Assembly (NCBI GenBank): GCA_025558095.1
Contig: JAIVFI010000032.1
Coordinates: forward strand, 310,001 to 374,000
DNA length: 64,000 nucleotides
Source of the DNA: Hyaloraphidium curvatum
Lineage: Eukaryota > Monoblepharomycota > Hyaloraphidiomycetes > Hyaloraphidiales > Hyaloraphidiaceae
Reading direction: 5' to 3'
Shown: one piece after another, positions 27,690-63,964 of the stretch
Layout of the letters: every line of letters begins with the position of its first letter
How positions within the stretch are numbered: position 1 is the first letter of the stretch
Notes under the pieces: generated by a model
Databases searched by the model: none
Seen by the model: only the letters and a program-made list of their open reading frames with translations
What the model was told of the DNA's origin: nothing
Translations under genes and position numbers: made by a program

Positions 27690-27949
27690 CGTCGGTGTTC
27701 TTGGGGCGTGGGCGGAAAGTGGGAGCCGCGGGGTGGAGGTGGGCGGAAAGTGCGACGGTCGATACTCGAAAGTGCGAGCGGGGTGCCCGATGCTTCGATG
27801 TACGTCCTCGCTAATCTATCGAATGTCAAGTTCCTACTGTCGACGAAGGACGGCTCTCGTCCCGACAGCGGTAGTGCCCCTTGTTGGGGCCTCGATTGGT
27901 GGTTGCGAAGGCGACCCACCGCACTTTTGACCGCCGAGGAGGCGGCCCG

Positions 27950-30790
27950 ATGGCCAAGCCTCCTGCGCCGGACCCGCGGCATTCGCACGGGTCCGACGCG
28001 TCGGAAGCTGTGCCGAACGGCGGCGCGTCCGGCGGCGCGGCGGCGGACGACGGTGCGCGGCGGCGTCGCAATGCCGACCCCTCGCGGGGCCCGTCTTCCC
28101 GCGTCGATTTCCGGTTCTCGGCGGACTCGGCGGACCTGGGCGACGCGGATCTGCCGGCGGCCGACGAGCCGCTGCCGCGCTACGAGTCGGGGTTCCTCCC
28201 GGCGATGGCGCTCGGCGTCGACGCGGACGCCGCGCGCGCCGCGCTGCTCGCCTCGCCGCCGCCGGCCGCCGTCGTGTCGCCCGAGCTGTACGCCGAGCAG
28301 CCGCGCGGGCTGGCGCCGAACCGCTACCCGACGATCGACTGGGTGCGCGACGGCATGCTCGACCGCAGGAGGCGCCGCGCAGAGTTCGTCGCCGCGCGCA
28401 CGTCGGTGGCGCCGACGCTCTCCGCGTGGGCAATCGGCGCTGCGGACGCCGCCCGCCCGTGGGCAGCAGCGACCCTGGCCGGCCTGATGACCGGCCTGCT
28501 CGCCGCCTCGGTCGCCGTCTTCACGGCGTTCCTGGTCGACGTCAAGACCGGCGTGTGCCGCGCGCTCATCTCGGACGGCCGCAAGGGCTGGTACCTCCCC
28601 AAGCGCGCGTGCTGCCTCGGCGCCGTCGACGCCGACGCAGGCGACTGCCCCGAATGGCAGCCGTGGTCGGAGCTCCTCGGCGTGCCGGGCTCGTACCTCG
28701 CGGACTACGGCGCCTTCACCGCCTTTTCGGTCCTCTTTGCCATGGTCTCCTGCCTGTGCGTCGTCACCTTGGCGCCGTGGGCCGGGGGCGAGGGCATCCC
28801 GGAACTCAAGACGGTGCTCGGCGGCAACCGCATCCCCGGCCTGCTCTCTCCGACCACGCTGCTCGTCAAGGCCGCCGGCCTGCCGCTGGCCATCGGGTCG
28901 GGGCTTTCGGTCGGCAAGGAGGGCGCGCTGATCCACGTCGCAGCCTGCCTCGGCGGCCTCGCGCTGCGCCTGGTGGGCGGCGCGAGCTCCGAGAGCCGCA
29001 ACCGCGAGATGCTCTCGAGCGCGGCCGCGGCGGGGATCGCCGTGGCTTTCGGCGCCCCCATCGGCGGCGTCCTTTTCTCCCTCGAGGAGGTATCGACGTT
29101 CTTCCCGCTCAAGACCGTCTGGCGGAGCATGCTCTGCGCCATGGTCGCCGCCGTGACGATGCAGATCATGGACCCGTACCGCGGGAAGCGCGTCGTTTTC
29201 GAGGTGCTCGGCCAGGGCGAGGCGGACTGGAAAATGTTTGAGCTCCCCGCCTTTATCGTGCTCGGCGCCATCGGCGCCGCCTACGGCGGCTTCTTCATCA
29301 GCGTCAACATGAAGGTGCAAGCCTGGCGCGAATGGCTCTACGCCCCCGCCCCCGCACCGCCGCAGCGCGATCCCCGCGCCCCCGCCCCCCCACCGCGCTC
29401 CCCCTTCCTCACCCCCCTCCTCGACGCCTTTGCCCTCGCCCTCCTCACCGCCGTGCTCTTCTACCCCTCACCCCTCACCCGCCTCGACGACCTCCGCGTG
29501 CTCGAGCTGCTCTTCCGGGACTGCCCCGAGCCCGGCTCCACCCTCGCCCCCGCGGACCCGCTCTGCCCCGCCGGCCCCGTCGCCCGCACCAAGCTCTTTG
29601 TCGTGCTCGCGCTCACCGCCTCCCTCAAGACCTTCCTGACCGCCGCCACCTACTCCCTCCCCGTGCCCTCGTCGGTGTTCATCCCCGGGATGGCCGTCGG
29701 CGCGCTGCTCGGCCGCGCGGTGGGGATGCTGGTGCAGGGGTCGGCGGCGGGCGGGGGCGCGTGGTTCGGCGAGTGCCGGCTCAAGCCGGACGAGGAGTGC
29801 GTGGGTCTGGGACGGTACGCCCTGCTGGGCGCGGTGGGGGCGCTGGGCGGGATCACCAGGTTGACGGGTGGGTACCGCGCGCGCCGCGGACGTCCCGCCC
29901 TTCCCTGACCTGACCGCGTGCATGCCGCAGTCTCGCTCGTGGTCATCATGTTCGAGCTCACGGGCCAGCTCTCCCTCGTCGTGCCCTCCATGGTCTGCCT
30001 CGTCTCGGCGCGCATCGCCTCGGACCTCATGGGCATCCGCCGCGGCTTCGCGGACGAGTGCATCCGCGCAAAGGGGTACCCGTACCTGGACCCCAACGAC
30101 GACAGGGCGCCGCAGGGGGAGGTGCGGGACTGCATGACGCCGCTGGAGGAGCTGGTGACGCTGCCGGCGCGGGGGGAGCCGGCGGAGAGGGTCGGGGAGA
30201 AGATGGGGAGGGGGTACCACGGGTTCCCCGTGGCGGACGGGGAGCTGATGGCCGGGTGGGTGCAGGCGGCGGACGTCAGGAGGGTGCTGGACGGGCTGCA
30301 GCTCGCCCCCGGGGCGTGGGTGAGGTTCGACGGGCGGGGCAGGACGAACGGGAGGAGGGTGTGGGTCGGCGGGGCGCCGGTCTACGTGGAGGAGGAGGCG
30401 GGGGACGGGGAGGCGATCGAGATGGTGGGGGATGCGGGGGTGGGGAGGGTGCGGGCCGCGGACCTGGCGAGCATCGTCGATCCCGCGCCCATCACGCTGA
30501 ATCCGCACCTGCCCGCGGCGGTGGCGGTGGACCTGTTCCGCAAGGTCGGTCCGCGGTGCGTGGTGGTCACGCGCAGGGGGAGGCTGAGGGGAGTGCTGAC
30601 CAAGAAGGACCTGCTGGTGGTCCTGGACTCGATGGATGCGGAACCGGAAGCCGAGGAGGGGATGGACGAGGAGGAGAGGGAGATTGCGGGGACGGTCGGA
30701 GGCGAGGAGCGGTCGTGGTGGGAGAGGCTGACGGGGCAAGGTGTGGGAGCGGACGAGATACCGCTTGTACGAGGCGGGCGCGGGGAGTGA
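27950..30790 (+). CDS. CLC-family chloride channel/antiporter with CBS domains
   Basis: A 925-aa CLC protein. Exons: 27950-29867 and 29931-30790. The join gives TRLTVSLVVIMFELTG, a conserved CLC block. Start at 27950 (MAKPPAPD). The ~18-helix core contains the gating glutamate motif GKEGA (Glu324), the LFSLEEV segment carrying the proton-glutamate of exchanger-type members, and PSSVFIPGMAVGALLGR (third filter motif). The first filter motif reads GGEGIPE, so Glu281 sits where GSGIP normally has Ser. The C-terminal ~260 residues hold two CBS domains (CMTPLEELVTL and GRVRAADL to KKDLLVVLD). Presence of both glutamates suggests a 2Cl-/H+ exchanger of endomembranes like ClC-3/7 or Gef1. Ion specificity is uncertain because of the substitution. 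Confidence 0.92.
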
Positions 30791-41528: not shown

Positions 41529-43065
41529 ATGGCGCGGCCGCACAGTTTCCACCTCCATTCCGACGTGGTGGATTTCGACACGGACCCCCAAACCTACCGA
41601 AAAGTCATCCTGGGCGACGGAGGGTTTGCCGTCGTGTACCGGGGCAGGTATTGCCGGGACACGCCCGTGGCCATCAAGGTGCTCAAGAGCCAAGACCAGC
41701 AGGGCCAGTATGAACGGCTCCGCGTGAAGCTGGTCCATGAGGTCGAGAAGTGGCAGGGTCTGACGCACGGGAATAGTGCGTGTTTCGACTCCGCGTTCCG
41801 ACCGAATTTAACAGGACGCGTCTCGCGCAGTTCTCCAGTTCCATGGCTACATCACGGAACCGCTGGCCATGGTTGCCGAAATCGCCGATGGAGGAGACCT
41901 GCGTCAGCTGCTGAACCGGGCGATTCAACAGCCGGGACTGCTGGACAGGGACGGACCCCGCATCTTGCTGCAGATTGCGAAGGGCATGTCCTACCTCCAC
42001 TCGCGGGACGTCCTGCACTGCGATCTGAAGCCAGAGAATGTCGTGATCTCCGGGGACGTGTGCAGAGTTTCTGATTTTGGGCTGGCGGCTGTGCGCGATG
42101 CCATGGGGACCGAAGGGGGCATCCCGCTTGGGGGGACACTCGGATACATTGCCCCGGAAGTGTTCGCCAACCCGCCGATTCGGAATAAGCTGAGCGATGT
42201 CTGGAGCTACGGTGTTATCGCATTCGAGGTATTCTCCGAGACCCACTCCGCCGCGAACTGGGACAGGGACAGGCGCCCGCGCCCCTACAGAGTCGACGAT
42301 CGTTCATGGAACTTGATCAGCAGCTGTACCAACCCCCTGTACCACGAGCGGAACCACTTCTGGAAGATCGTGGACATCCTCACTCTCAACAACGAATGGA
42401 GAGTGGATGGCAGGCCGCTCCAGTGCACGGCCATCGACGGCAGCGCAAGAGCGCCAGCAGGGAGCACTGATTTCGAGGCCACTTTGTCGCGCAGCTTTGT
42501 AGATCTTCCCAGCTCCCTGGACTTAAACTCTTCACCGAGCGAACCTAGGCCGGATGGGGCCGGACGGCACCTCGATAGCGCGGTTACCCCGGACGTGGAC
42601 GATTTGCTCCGTCGCGGCCTCGCGCTTGAGAACGGCGATGGGGTCCCCAGGAACCTCGAAGCAGCAGTCAGCCTCTTTCGCCAAGCCGCTGATCTTAGCG
42701 ACCCGCGGGGCCAGTTTGCCGTCGGGTGGGCGTGCGAGAGCGGCAGAGGCGCAGAAAAGGATCTCGCCGAGGCTTTTTCGTGGTACCGCAAGGCCGCGGA
42801 GAAGGGCCACATAGACGCGTGTGTCCACCTGGGTTGGTGCTACGAGTTTGCAAAGGGCACTGCTGCGGACGTGGACGAGGCTGTGAGGTGGTACCGGATC
42901 GCGGCTGAGCGTGGCGAGCCGAGGGCGCAGTACGCTCTTGGTTGGGCTCACAAGACGGGTCGTGGCGCTGCAAAAGACGACAGTTTGGCATTTGCATGGT
43001 TCAAGAAAGCGGCGGACCAGGGTCATGAGGATGCCTCGAACATGCTCGCTGCGGCAACGACGTGA
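41529..43065 (+). CDS. Protein kinase-Sel1 repeat fusion
   Basis: A 493-aa protein, exons 41529-41775 and 41831-43065. The join rebuilds LTHGNILQFHGYITEPLAMVAEIADGGDL, a classical kinase beta4-alphaD region. Motifs are the glycine loop GDGGFAVVYRG, AIK lysine (PVAIKVLK), catalytic loop LHCDLKPEN (HCD at 145-147 in place of HRD), DFG and APE. All catalytic residues are retained, so activity is expected despite Arg to Cys in the HRD. Residues ~345-490 contain four Sel1-like repeats (for example EAVSLFRQAADLSDPRGQF and EAFSWYRKAAEKGHIDACVHLG). Sel1 arrays act as protein-binding solenoids. The combination is common in Mucoromycota/chytrid-like and amoebal genomes, and the pathway is unknown. Confidence 0.88.
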
Positions 43066-56371: not shown

Positions 56372-58427
56372 ATGAGGGCCGGGCGGGCGCTGCGGCTCGG
56401 CGCGCTCTTCCTGCTCATTGCCGGGGCGACGTACGCGTGGTTTGCCGGCCTCGTGCCCGATTTCTGGCTCCGGCCGGCGGGGCACCCCGGACCGCCAACG
56501 CCCACCGTCGCGTTGGAAGCGCGAGGGAACCCCGAGGAACGGCCACTAGGACCGTCCCGGGCAGCGCCATTTCCGACGGCCTTCGTTGCCGGCGTGCCCC
56601 ATCCCGGGATACTGCGGACAAAGGCGCCTGCCGCGTCTCCAACGCCGGCCTTTGCGCCTCTCCTCCCCGAGCCGGTTGCTCCGCCCCCGGTGCCTCAGCC
56701 GAACCCGAATCAGCCCTGTGTATACCACAACTTTGTTCTGGCCGTGAAGACCGGCGCGGAGACCATGAACTCGCGCCTCCAGATGATGCAGGACGTCTGG
56801 CTCTGGCCAGGGCCCTGGTGCAACGTCGTCGCGCTCACGGAACGCTTCCCGGCCAACGATTCCTTGCTCGGGATTGCGCCGGGGGAGGACGAAAAGTACG
56901 TCAGAACGCTGGGCTGGATGACGGTCATCGACGTCGTCACCAAGCGGACAACGGCTGGAGAGACCGCCGGGGACGCCGGTGGCAAATCTACCGCCGCGGG
57001 AGGCGCCGGGCCCGCGGATGGGGACGCAGTGAAAGGGGTGAACACCATCCCTCGTCGGAGACCCCGAATCCGAAGGCGCGGAATGGACGACTCCGCAAAA
57101 GGGGGCGTTGCCGTGGACGGTGCCTCAAAGGGGCACGACGGCGACACAGCAGTCGCCGATCCTCCTGCTGACGCCGCGGACGACGCAGCTCCTGTGCTCC
57201 GCAAGGCAGGGGGCACGGAGCAAGGCTGGGCCGACGACCAGGACAAGTTCCTGCCCGGATTCGCGGAGCTCTGGAGACGCTTCCCCGGCGTCCACTGGTG
57301 TAAGTGGTCCGGCGCTGCCTGAGGATGTCGCTGCTCACACTCCTTCGCCAGTTTTGATGATCGATGACGACACGTACCTCCACATGCCGACCCTGGTCCA
57401 CCTCCTCCCCATGTCGTCGTTCGCCGACCCGGACAAGCCCACCTACCTCGGCTCGCAGCACTGGTACAGCGGCTGCCCCGACTCGAAGCGCCCGAAACGC
57501 GAGGGAGAGGAGAACGACAGCGGTGGCTTCAGCGTCGGCGGCGGCGGCATCCTCCTCTCGCGCGCCGCCCTGCGCAAAATGCTCGTGATCGTCAGGGGCT
57601 GCATCGAGGACCTCGCCGGGTGCTGGGCCGGCGACGTGCGCACGAGCATCTGCCTGCGCCGCGCGGGGGTCGACCTCTCGGCGATGGACAACGCTGGGGA
57701 GGGCGGGTTCTGGGCGGACTGGAGCGAGAACGTGGCACGGTGGCCGCAGGGCTCGCCCTGCGACCCGCTCATCACGATCCACCACGTCGTCGACAGATCG
57801 CAGCTGGAGCGGCTCGGCGACCTGGGGAGGGCGGTGCCGCTGGATAGGATGTTCACCATGGCCGCCGCTTATCCGGCGGTGCAGAGGGACTCGGACAGGG
57901 AGGCCATGGCGGTGGAGGAGGGCACGGTGCGGCGCCATGCGATGCGGAGGGGCTTCGCGATCTCCAGCGGGCCGCCATCCGCAGCATCCAAGAACCTCGG
58001 CGCTGGCAAGCTCAGGGTGCTGCTGAGCAACGGCACCCTGCCCCTCGGGGCCGAGGATTTGGCCGGGCTCGCGGCCCGCGGGATCGACGCCTCCTCCGCG
58101 CTGGCGTGCCACGCCGCGTGCGTTGCGAACACCCGATGTTCCACATGGAACCTCTCGCCCGACCAGACCTGCGTGCTGATGGCCGCCCTCGGGCGGCCGG
58201 TGGGCGCCAACGGGATCCCGGATCCGAACGCGGATCCGCCCTCCGATCCGGGTACCGAGGCGTCGAAGGAAGAGTGGGAGGGCGGGTGGACCGGCATGGT
58301 GGACGGGGCGGTCGCGAGGTGGCTCGAAGGGGGGAGGAGGTGCCCTGCCGCGCCGGATTGGCCGCAGTGGAGGGCGGAGGGGGGACGGTGGGGAGGCCAG
58401 CACGATGTCTTCAGCCCGGCTGATTAG
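56372..58427 (+). CDS. Fringe-like DDD glycosyltransferase with apple-like C-terminus
   Basis: Predicted 667-aa type II Golgi enzyme. Exons 56372-57299 and 57352-58427, joining as HWFLMIDDDTYLHM. Signal anchor at residues ~10-27, then a Pro-rich stem. The catalytic domain carries DDD (314-316) followed by a G-G-x-L-L motif (GGGGILLS), and the acidic Arg/Lys-rich loop before DDD is very long. This is the GT31/Fringe-type pattern (beta-1,3-glycosyltransferase). After the catalytic domain a Cys-containing segment (CHAACVANTRCSTWNL) resembles a PAN/apple module that binds proteins or sugars. The donor sugar is unknown. The CDS follows a divergent promoter shared with the MYND gene. Confidence 0.82.
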
Positions 58428-58764
58428 CATGGAAGCTATGGAAGGAAGATAAAACAAGATCCGTGAAGATTGAAACGAACCGTGATCCACGTCAAATCTC
58501 GTATTGGAGCTTATCCAAAGCCGGTGTCAGCCATCATCACGCCTGGGAGCTTCGGAATAGATACATGAACGAAGAACGCGTCTTAGTTCTCCATAGAATC
58601 ATGTCGTTTTCATGAACGGACGTGCCAAAGCTTTCGGTGCGGGGCTCCAGAATCCGTTTTCCCTCTGTGTCTGGTCCCTTTGGACCCAGCTGCCCTCCGC
58701 CCAACACCGCCCGCGGCTTTGCTGGCGCCACTCGGTCCTCACCCTGCTCTTCCCCATCCTGACC
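58428..58764. other. Intergenic region and leader, nothing recognised
   Basis: A 337-bp spacer, AT-richer than its surroundings around 58430-58520, with no conserved frame or RNA gene. It should contain the terminator of the glycosyltransferase and the promoter of the GPI-protein gene. Confidence 0.35.
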
Positions 58765-59039
58765 ATGGCCCGCCTCTCTTTGCTCTTTGTGGCCATTGCC
58801 GCTCTCCTCGGCTGCCTCGCCGCGCCCGTCGCGGGGCAGGCCTTTGTCACCATCATCGGCTACGGTACTCCCAACTGCACCGGTGGGGCGGGCATTTGGG
58901 CCGCTTTTCCGAGATCTAACTTCTGACGACACCGTGGCCGGTCTCCTACGCTCGCTGCTACCCAGGAACTGTCATTGGTGCGTCCACCATTGCCTGGGAC
59001 GTTGGGCCCCCACCGGGGGGACGCTAATCACTACTGCTA

Positions 59040-59076
<37 letters not shown>

Positions 59077-59814
59077 CAGGATTCGGCACGGGATTGTTCC
59101 CCAACGCCACCAACTGCTCCGACCCCAATGTTCTTCCGTTCATTACCGGGGGACGGTGCCAAACTGGGTCCCTTCCGGGAACGAGCAATACTACGACGTG
59201 CTCGAACACTGCTCCCTCCAACATGTGCGTTTGCTGGGCCCTACTTTTCTGCTCTGCCTCATTCCGTCCTGCCGTTGCTCTATAGCACCGTTCCTTCGGG
59301 AGCGTCGGGAGACTACGTTCTGGGGACACTCTGTAAGCGGACTTGGACAACTAGGCATAACAGCCTCTGAAACATGTGATCTGCCACAGACGAAGGCTCC
59401 AGCTGCAACAGAAGCGCCTGGGGCAGCCAGCAGGCAGTTCGTTCGGGCCTCTGCACTCCCACCGACCTGGCACCCGGAGCGTTCACCCTCTCGAACTGCA
59501 ACGGCACTGACGGCCTCATCACCGTGTTTTCGGACAGCAACTGTTCCACCCCGCTTCCTGTAGTCCCGCCGATCAGTGTCGGATCCGGGTGCACGAACGT
59601 CTTGGGACTGTTCTCAATCACCGGAGGTGGGATCGAATCCCTGGCGGCACAGCGAATCAGCTGACTCCTTCCGCTGCGATCGCAAGGATGCCTGAAAATC
59701 AACAGCACCGTCATCACGACCACCACGACGAGGCCCGCATCCGCCGGCCGCGTGGGAGTGGGGGCCATGGGGGCCCTGGCGGCAGCTGTCGTCGGAATGA
59801 TCACCCTGTTCTAA
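58765..59814 (+). CDS. Secreted, GPI-anchored Cys-rich glycoprotein
   Basis: Predicted 225-228-aa surface protein. Exons: 58765-58882, a possible 12-nt exon at 58966-58977, 59080-59224, 59286-59332, 59390-59626 and 59687-59814. Signal peptide 1-24 (MARLSLLFVAIAALLGC to VAGQ). Two or three related Cys segments follow the pattern (T/S)-x-NC-(S/T) (GTPNCTG, FPNATNCS, LSNCNGTD, DSNCSTP), several with NxS/T glycosylation sequons. Joins rebuild GTLYEGSSCNRSAW and ITGGCLKINS. The C-terminus has a Thr-rich stretch then a hydrophobic tail (VGVGAMGALAAAVVGMITLF), a GPI signal. Exon 2 is uncertain: both including and omitting it preserve frame. Function is unknown, and a wall or adhesion protein is likely. 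Confidence 0.72.
59044..59073 (+). repeat. (TC)n microsatellite in an intron
   Basis: About 15 TC dinucleotide units just upstream of a CTCCAG acceptor in the GPI-protein gene. It doubles as an extended polypyrimidine tract. Confidence 0.9.
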
Positions 59815-59966: not shown

Positions 59967-62900
59967 TCAATGGGTCGCCGCGTTCCACATCCTGAAGTAG
60001 TCCCCGTGATGCTCCAACAGCTCCGCGTGCGTCCCCTCCTCGACGACGGCGCCCTGGCGCACCACAAAGATGCGGTTGCAGCCGACGACCGAGGGCAGGT
60101 CGTCCGTTGTGCGGAGCACGGTGCGCCGGTCCGCCGCCGCCAGGAGTAGCCGCGCGAGCGCGGGATCGGAGGACGGCTCGGCGGGATCGTCGACGAGGAG
60201 AAGCTCCGGGTCGCGGATGAGGGCGCGAGCTGAGCAATCGGGTTGTCAATGGCGGATGCGGACGGCAGCGGCACCAAACACCCACCCAGAGCCATCCGCT
60301 CCGCCGACTCGCCATCCAACTCCTTCCCGCCCGGTCCGAGCACGGTCTCGTATCCACCGACCGCCTGTATCGCGTCGTGCACCCCCGCGGCCCCGGCCGC
60401 GGCCATGATGCTCTCGGGCGTCGCATCCGGCATCCCGTACGCCACGTTGTCCGCAGCCGTGCCCGAAAACACGGGCGCATCCCGGTCCCAGAGCGCCGTC
60501 ACGCGCGCACGCATGAACCGCCCATCCCAGTCGCGCACGTCGACGCCGTCCAGCACGATGCGGCCGTACGAGGGCTCGTACAGGCCAAGCACGAGGGCGT
60601 GCAGCGCGCGGCGCTCGGCGTGGGTGGCGCCAACGACGGCCACGTGCTCGCCCGGGTGCAGCGAGAGCGCGAAGCCGCGGAGGACGTCGGCGCCCGTGTC
60701 GGGGTCCGTGTACGCGAGGTCCGCGATCTCGAGGCTGCCGGAGGGAGCGGCAGCCTCGCCCATGTACCGCCGGCCCTCGGGTTGCGGCGGGCTGGGGGCC
60801 ATGATGAGCGCGACGGTGGCCAGCGCGCGCCGCGAGGCCTCGAGCACGTCGCCGACGGCAGGCAGCTGCCCCGACGCAGTGCCACAAAAGGCCGCGAGCG
60901 CCCAGATGATGGCGATGTTGAGGAGGGAGTACTCGAAGGGCCGGAGCAGCGAGGCCGCGTACCACCAGAAGAGCGCCTGGAAGAAGTAGAGCACGCCCTG
61001 GGCGAGCCCGTGGGCCGCGGCGGCGATCCCCCGGCCGAGCTCGGTCGACTCGGAGACGTCCTTGAGCGAGGCCTTGTACCTCGCGAGCACCTTGTCCTCG
61101 AGCCCGTACGCCGCCACCGTCCTCCACGCATCTACGGCCTCGGCGACCAGCCCGTCCGCCGCCGCCACGCCCGAGGAGAGCACCTTGCCCGCGCCGCCGG
61201 AGAAGTACCGCTCCACCGCGCCGAGGATGGCCACGGCGGGCACCAGCGCCCACGCCACCAGCGCGAGCTTCCAGCCGCACAGCATGGCCCACACAAAACC
61301 CCCGATCGCGGTCGAAAGGAACCCGACGAGGTTCCCCCACGCTCCCGTCGCCGCGCCCCGGATCTTGGGCGCCTCGGCCGACAGCGCGCGCATCACCTGG
61401 GCGGGTGAGTGCTCCTGCATCGAGAACCACGCGAGCTCGTGGGCCAGCGCGGCGTCGAACGCGCGCTTGCGCACCCGCATCGTCAGACGCTCCCCGGCCA
61501 GCTCGAAGCAGAGCACCTTGGCGTAGAAAGCAACCCCCTCGAGTGCGGCGACGTTGAACACGATCAGGGACCAGAAGTTGGCCCCCGCGGTCACGTCCTC
61601 CGGATCGGGGTCCGTGTAGACGAACAGGAGCTGTCCGAGCACGACGGCAAAGAGCACCACCACCATGCCGCCGAACAGCGACGCCGCGGTGCCGCCGGCG
61701 AGCACCCCCGCCTCGGGCCGGGAGAGCTTGAACACGTCCAGGAGGGAGAAGCTCGGCGCCGGGCCGCCGGCGACCTCCTCGTCCGCGCGCACCTGCACCT
61801 GCGCGGGGGCGGCGCCGGCGCCGGGCGCGAGCAGCATCTGCTCCTCGCCCTTGCCCGCCTCGGAGCCCTGCGGCGTGGCAGACTCGCCGTCCTGGGGGGT
61901 CGATTCCTCGTCGTCCCAGTCCGAAGTCGGAGTGGGCGGCTTATCCCCGCCGAGGCGGCCGGTGCGGCGGAGCTGCGGCGTCTCCGGGGGCCGCGAGGCG
62001 AGCAGCGAGAGGTGCGACGAGGGATCGGCGAGAAGAGCGTCGTACGAGCCGCGTTCGGCCACGCGGCCGCCGGCAAACACGGCGACGGCGTCGCACAGCC
62101 GGAGCGCATCCGTGCGGTGGCTGCGGAGGAGCACCGTTGGGCGGCGGCCAGGCCGCCGGACGACGTAGCGCAGCAGCTCGAGCTCCTCCTCGGCTGTGAG
62201 GTGCGGTACGGGGTCGTCGAGGATCAGGATCTCGGGGTCCTTGTAGAGCGCGCGGGCCACCGCGATTCTGAGGGTCACCACAGCACGTTTCCAGTCAGAA
62301 GACGTTCACCTGACTGCGCGCCGCGCTCGAACCCACCTCTCCCTCTCACCCTCCCCGAGCACCCACACGCTCGTCCCCGCCCCCCTCGGCAGGCTCCCCA
62401 CCACCTCCCCCATCCCCACCGCCGCCAAACACTCCTGCACCCTCGCCTGGTCCGGCGCCTCGGTCCCCCCTCCCAATCCGTCGGCCACCGCCTCGGCCAC
62501 GCTCCCCGTCAGCAGCGGCATCCCGCCAGCCGCCAGCGACACGGTCCTCCGGCGGAGATGGGGCACGTCGTACGACGCCAGCTCGACGCGGTCGACCCAC
62601 GCCCTTCCCGCCTCGGGATCCGCCAGCCTCACCAAGATATCCGACAGGGCGCGCATCTCCTCGCCCCCGACGATCCCCAAAACCTCCCCCCGCGCCACCA
62701 ACAGATCGCACGCGTCGAGCCCCGGCCGCAGCGCGATCCCCTCGAACGCAACCTCCCTCCCACCCCCGCCGGGCACCGGCTCGGGCACGAACCCGCCCAT
62801 ATCGCTCCCCGTCGCCCCCACTATGCGCTCCTCGGCGAGCGCCACCAGCCCCGCCGCCGCCCTCCTCCCGGTCTTGATCTCCGCCAGCCGCCCGCGGAAC

Positions 62901-63964
62901 CCTTGCGCGGCCGAAAGCCCGGCCGCGGCGCAGGCAAACACGCACAGCGCGGTGCCGGCGGACAGCTGTGCCGAGGAGGCGAGGGTGCCGGCGTACCATG
63001 CGGCGAGGGCGAACGAGCCGATGAGGAGGAAGCCGAAGACGGCGCGGGAGAGGGCGTGCCTGTGCGCCGCGCGTTCGGAAAGCAGGCTCGCGCCGCGGAC
63101 AAGGGTGTCGAAACGCGCCGAGGCGGCGGGCTGCGCGTCGGCGGAGAACACGGGGAGCAGCGAGGTGAAGGTCCTCAGCGCGTGCGAGGCGGCGGCGCGC
63201 AGGGCGGCGACGGAGGTGCGCGCTGCGCCAGCGGCGGAGCGGGCGAGGAGGAAGGTGACGGCGAATTGGAGGGGGACCAGGGCAAAGATGACGAGGGCGA
63301 GGCGCCACGAGCGGAGGAGGGCGACGGCGAGGGTGGCGATGCAGGTGGACGCGAGGGCGATGATGGAGGGGTACTGCAGGAGCGCCTTGCGGTAGAGCGG
63401 TGGGTCCCTGCGATGCGGAATCGAAGTGAGCGGAAATTGGGGACCGGCGGCGGTTGAAGCCCACCTCGAGAGAACGGTCCGCCACGCACGCTCACTCCCG
63501 TCGCGCCATCCCCCCAGCGACCCGATGGCGAGCAGGTGCGCCACCACGCGCCTCCGCAGCTCGCGCTCCTTGTCCATCGCCCACTGCTCCCACATCCATT
63601 TCCCCACGCCCGCCGCTATGGCCGCGCCGGCGCCGATCGCCGCCAAAGCCCACGCGATGTAGTTGATCTGCTGGTTGAAGGGCAGCACGGGCAGCCTGCC
63701 CAGGGAGTACTTTGCGAGCAGGTCGAAGGCCAGCCCCGCGTAGAGCGCCAGGATCGCCGGGAGAGCGCCCAGGGCCACGGAGAGGATGGTCGGGATCACG
63801 GGCGGCAGCGGCATCTTTGACCAGGGCAGCGGGTCCGGCAGGCCCAGCTTGGCGGCGGCGGGGCCGGCGGGGATCAGCTCCTTGATGCCCTTCAAATTGA
63901 GGGCGGGCATGGAGGGCAGCGAGGGCAGCGACGGCAGGGCGGGGAGCAGCGGCAGCTCGATCAT
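59967..63964 (-). CDS. Full-size ABC transporter with degenerate ATP-binding sites
   Basis: A 1271-aa ABCB-type protein (TMD-NBD-TMD-NBD). Exons: 63964-63465, 63407-62337, 62267-60286, 60229-59967. The joins rebuild GEGERERIAVARALYKDPEILILDD and ERMALARALIRDPELLLVDD. NBD folds are clear, but the catalytic motifs are altered. In NBD1 the Walker A region is GIVGGEEMRALS (no GKS/T), the signature is LGEGE and Walker B ends in DD (537-542), with an SHR H-loop (His574). In NBD2 the Walker A region is GATHAERRAL (1070-1079), the signature is LDGES and the H-loop reads RTTDD. Long acidic linker after NBD1. The N-terminal start at 63964 is near the window edge, and an upstream exon is possible. Role is inferred to be non-hydrolytic or regulatory. 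Confidence 0.85.

Follow-up and report, generated by a model that had tools for sequence, protein, structure and literature searches.

A full-size ABCB gene of Hyaloraphidium curvatum with both ATP sites degenerate and an intact reading frame

Introduction

Motion powered by ATP is the defining property of ABC transporters. Each composite ATP site is formed by the Walker A motif of one NBD and the signature motif of the other NBD. To our knowledge, the known cases of lost sites either retain one working site or have lost the NBDs entirely. A stretch of 64,000 nucleotides from Hyaloraphidium curvatum (contig JAIVFI010000032.1, positions 310,001 to 374,000; hereafter the window) carries, on its minus strand at 63964-59967, a gene for an ABCB protein in which both sites appear to be lost. 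The locus raises the question of whether such a protein is retained and works without ATP, or whether the gene is a decaying or artefactual copy.

Results

Gene model and splicing

A sequence-only reading of the locus had proposed four exons, an uninterrupted protein of 1271 aa with the order TMD-NBD-TMD-NBD, and intact splice signals and frame. The gene rebuilt from the DNA agreed with this proposal at every point: four exons and three introns on the minus strand gave 1271 codons without a stop. Exon 1 (63465..63964), with the ATG at 63964 and the donor GTGGGC, encodes the N-terminal tail and the first part of TMD1. Exon 2 (62337..63407) encodes the remaining TMD1 and NBD1 through the degenerate signature LGEGE, and contains the degenerate Walker A GIVGGEEMRALS. 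Exon 3 (60286..62267) encodes the end of NBD1 (ILILDD, PHLT and LRSHR), the linker, TMD2, and NBD2 to LDGES, including GATHAERRAL. Exon 4 (59967..60229) encodes the end of NBD2, with LLLVDD and with LRTTDD replacing the H-loop, and the stop. All three introns were GT-AG, with a branch-like CTCAC, CTGAC or TTGAC upstream of the 3' end. Intron 2 (62268..62336, 69 nt), which lies directly after the degenerate NBD1 signature, and intron 3 (60230..60285, 56 nt) were recovered at identical bases by a homology-guided spliced alignment that used ABCB4 as the query and made no use of our own gene model. Intron 1 (63408..63464, 57 nt, phase 2, with a branch-like CTCAC) is the least certain of the three; it sits in a poorly conserved stretch, and read-through also keeps the frame open.

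The uncertainty of intron 1 speaks for an artefact, namely the misassembly, sequencing errors or mis-splicing of a normal ABCB gene. However, this explanation is largely refuted, and we consider it highly improbable. The motif stretches fall within exons 2-4, and the independent spliced alignment bore out the boundaries of these exons. Dozens of substitutions that leave the frame unbroken are unlike an error pattern. No near-identical copy with standard motifs, intact or allelic, was found in the genome. The sequence-only reading had named misassembly among the ways in which it could be wrong, and a misassembled standard paralogue is disfavoured, as the closest relatives within the genome are only about 25-30% identical.

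An open reading frame of 682 aa on the plus strand (61409-63457) was rejected as an artefact. Its GC by position is the pattern of the ABC gene read antisense, and the frame exists because the codons of the ABC gene are GC-rich.

Family and fold of the protein

The Pfam search matched two stretches to ABC_membrane (E 5e-54) and two to ABC_tran (E 1e-21), and the best solved (PDB) matches were P-gp (ABCB1) and ABCB4. By its sequence and descent, the predicted gene product is a full-size ABCB with two TMD-NBD units in one chain. The second half of the protein grouped nearest the second halves of the ABCBs of the same genome, with weak support (72/51). The hydropathy profile was compatible with 6+6 TM helices if the long stretches 175-229 and 833-883 are each counted as two.

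TMD2 and most of NBD2, which are contiguous in exon 3 (492 aa), were modelled with AlphaFold from an alignment of 22 rows, with a pLDDT of 77 and a pTM of 0.67. The TMD2 helices are present in the model. Superposition on TAP, MsbA and TmrAB gave Z scores of 18.6-19.5 and an rmsd of 3.6-4.4, with about 450 residues aligned. The model and its superposition are compatible with an intact exporter fold, but they are no proof of folding in the actual protein, because canonical relatives in the alignment assist the model.

The order TMD-NBD-TMD-NBD is common to full-size ABCBs (PMC2848647), to animal P-gp and ABCB4, and to the gene described here. However, those ABCBs have standard ATP-site motifs, whereas both sites here are without the Walker A Lys, the signature and the Q-loop. 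The main text of Kovalchuk and Driessen 2010 (PMC2848647) contains no occurrence of 'degenerat', and our limited literature searches gave no described ABCB in which both sites are as degenerate as here.

Both ATP sites are degenerate

The NBDs were compared with those in spliced models of the other ABCB genes found in the same genome (four of full size, and three that are half-size or partial), and all halves were aligned with ABCB4. The Walker A consensus GxxGxGKS/T is lost twice (GIVGGEEMRALS at aa 411 and GATHAERRAL at aa 1070): the aligned residues are G--GEEMRA in NBD1, which is additionally two residues short, and GATHAERRA in NBD2, and both Lys are gone. The LSGGQ signature is replaced by LGEGE in NBD1 (aa 517) and by LDGES in NBD2 (aa 1174). 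Walker B terminates in DD in both NBDs (ILILDD at aa 537, LLLVDD at aa 1194), so that the catalytic Glu is changed to Asp twice. The Q-loop Gln is changed to Gly and Arg in the two NBDs, the D-loops are altered (PHLT and PSSD), and the A-loop Tyr is missing in one NBD and is Asp in the other. The H-loop His is retained by NBD1 only, and NBD2 has LRTTDD (aa 1223) at that place. The losses in Walker A, LSGGQ and the Walker B Glu, and the second H-loop without His, all read as the sequence-only reading had given them.

Eighteen catalytic positions, defined as those conserved across the intact halves in the alignment, were scored in each NBD. NBD1 kept 6/18 and NBD2 kept 3/18, against essentially all in the ten intact halves, which upheld the claim that both sites are degenerate. 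The other sampled NBDs of the genome, from several ABC subfamilies, had standard or near-standard motifs, and no second degenerate ABC gene was present among the sampled loci, which were the best-scoring candidates of the genome search. A search for orthologues, limited to prokaryote genomes and viral contigs, returned only bacterial and archaeal ABC proteins from the former and nothing from the latter.

Because each site pairs a Walker A with the opposite signature, and all four of these motifs are lost, no consensus ATP site remains. Mutation of Walker A in either site blocks ABCB1, while a change of the Walker B Glu to Asp is frequent where a site is degenerate and still permits slow hydrolysis (PMC7756269). 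Since the latter change alone is common, the argument is carried by the losses in Walker A and in the signature. By established ABC chemistry, transport driven by ATP is implausible once no consensus site remains. The earlier claim that the protein must work without ATP hydrolysis is in line with this, as hydrolysis would be implausible for a protein of this sequence; the roles that it gave as examples (channel, receptor, scramblase or partner of another transporter) are hypothetical.

The reading frame and the NBD core are retained

Canonical paralogues were mutated neutrally in silico to the observed 25% catalytic retention. On average the simulated genes acquired 15-26 stops in frame, never fewer than 7, together with 106-120 indels over a 3.05-kb stretch, at an assumed indel rate of 5%, whereas the real gene has 0 stops and 0 frameshifts across 3.8 kb. 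The hydrophobic core of the NBDs, taken as those positions of the alignment at which intact NBDs carry hydrophobic residues, was retained at 64/76 positions in NBD1 and 69/75 in NBD2 (133/151 together). Elsewhere in the NBDs, 42/150 and 42/161 positions (84/311) were hydrophobic (Fisher p ~2e-37 versus the core). The GC content by codon position was 0.73/0.53/0.92, against 0.62-0.63 in the introns, and the coding pattern therefore persists. Simple neutral decay is improbable. The sequence-only reading had judged pseudogenisation unlikely and the fold-bearing residues to remain; the simulation and the retained core bear out the first point, and the core, which is largely kept, bears out the second.

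Divergence was also observed outside the motifs. Other invariant NBD residues were kept at 29/63 positions in NBD1 and 33/63 in NBD2. Identity to the paralogues was down from about 58% to 27-33% in the NBDs and from 33-35% to 20-23% in the TMDs, and the branches of the two halves were very long (2.4 and 1.8 substitutions per site). Judging from these residues, constraint on the NBDs is broadly relaxed, and because the NBDs diverge everywhere, the motif loss may partly reflect this general relaxation. The loss was heavier at catalytic positions than at the other conserved positions of the NBDs (9/36 versus 62/126 retained, p = 0.013), an excess that was clear in NBD2 (p = 0.008) but not in NBD1 (p = 0.42).

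The amino acids of the protein are strongly GC-biased (Ala 17.3% versus 11.0% and Lys 1.7% versus 4.4% in the paralogues). The composition is partly regional, because other open frames of the GC-rich region likewise show raised GC1 and GC2. GC pressure as the sole cause was rejected, as a paralogue on C1 with a GC3 of 0.91-0.97 has normal motifs and normal GC1 and GC2.

The very long branches, the fall in NBD identity and the amino-acid bias all favour a fast-evolving copy on its way out, in which catalysis has been lost and little or no selection now acts, so that only the recency of the final inactivation accounts for the open frame. The many stops and frameshifts of simulated drift, none of which occur in the gene, the retained hydrophobic core and the partly regional composition speak against it, and we consider this explanation unlikely. 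A recently disabled gene, for example one with a promoter lesion, would look identical.

Neighbouring genes and other features

The ORF at 57042-58427 on the plus strand, near the ABC gene, has Fringe-like and DUF604 matches and encodes a probable glycosyltransferase. A probable multi-exon gene at 58763-59814, also on the plus strand, would give a short secreted product, possibly GPI-anchored, with no Pfam match for the one exon tested; a CT dinucleotide run at about 59044-59075 lies in an apparent intron of this gene. Further away on the plus strand of the window, 41812-43062 encodes a protein kinase domain fused with Sel1 repeats, and 27875-29905, which is GC-rich, encodes a member of the voltage-gated chloride channel family. 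The 31.9-Mb genome gave 74 fungal-type transcription factor domain matches and no clear IFT57, which together with the short introns marks the host as a fungus. The Fungal_trans pairs C10:42653/C51:10831 and C25:4796/C25:28295 had identical scores and frame lengths, which suggests recent duplicates or duplicated assembly pieces.

Discussion

The explanation that we hold with moderate confidence is that this is a real coding gene for an ABCB with a dead ATPase, retained as a folded protein that works independently of ATP, most likely as a carrier or facilitator. This confidence applies mainly to the dead ATPase and the retained protein, and the carrier step alone deserves less. An old, fast-evolving ABCB duplicate would have lost ATP turnover long ago and would then have been kept as a folded membrane protein, with the dead NBDs acting as a scaffold that holds both TMDs together. 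The TMD cavity would need no ATP; most probably it would let a lipid-like or amphipathic substrate pass as a carrier or facilitator driven by a gradient, in a mode comparable in principle to that of SbmA. The predicted TM segments contain few charged residues, among them E767, K774 and E876, which counts against a carrier mechanism.

SbmA is an ABC-exporter-type TMD powered by the proton gradient without ATP (PMC13316013). However, SbmA/SLiPT proteins are bacterial and without NBDs, whereas the protein here has two dead NBDs on one chain and is not SbmA-like by architecture. A single D-loop change in TAP converts the pump to a nucleotide-gated facilitator (PMC7756269), and the altered D-loops of both NBDs would fit a facilitator without proving it. 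The change of the Walker B Glu to Asp, the altered signature and the altered H-loop are also seen in TAP1/2, BSEP, CFTR and the MRPs, which have one degenerate site (PMC7756269). These transporters retain one working site, whereas in the present protein neither site is left and the Walker A motifs are gone as well. An ATP-independent carrier or facilitator is favoured, and a regulatory role placed second, because of the SbmA and TAP precedents and the absence of a consensus site.

SUR is an ABC protein that controls a potassium channel, and a regulatory or receptor role of this kind ranks as the next most likely after a carrier or facilitator, although we regard it as unlikely. Such a pseudo-transporter would move no substrate; it would bind a ligand or partner and control another membrane protein. 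The loss of the ATPase motifs together with the retention of the TMDs and NBD cores suits a scaffold, SUR1/SUR2 (ABCC8/9) use the ABC architecture for regulation and not for transport, and SUR1 is described as a regulatory ABC subunit (PMC4699857). However, SUR1/SUR2 belong to the ABCC family and have nucleotide-sensing NBDs that keep nucleotide binding, whereas the protein here most likely cannot bind nucleotide, and no gene-cluster partner was recognised among the neighbours of the ABC gene.

It is possible, but doubtful, that a carrier or facilitator of this kind represents a fungal clade of full-size ABCBs in which both sites are ATP-free for good and the whole TMD-NBD body serves as a carrier, scramblase or channel. 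If true, this would be a natural primary-to-secondary conversion with the NBDs retained as dead scaffolds. Should the same losses occur in close relatives and be maintained there by purifying selection, the finding would gain considerably in interest, whereas standard motifs in those relatives would make this gene an isolated, relaxed copy. An ABCB of full size in which neither site works, but in which the residues of the fold persist, would offer a natural test of what TMDs do once uncoupled from ATP, and the same protein would bear on how a primary pump becomes a passive carrier, channel or regulator.
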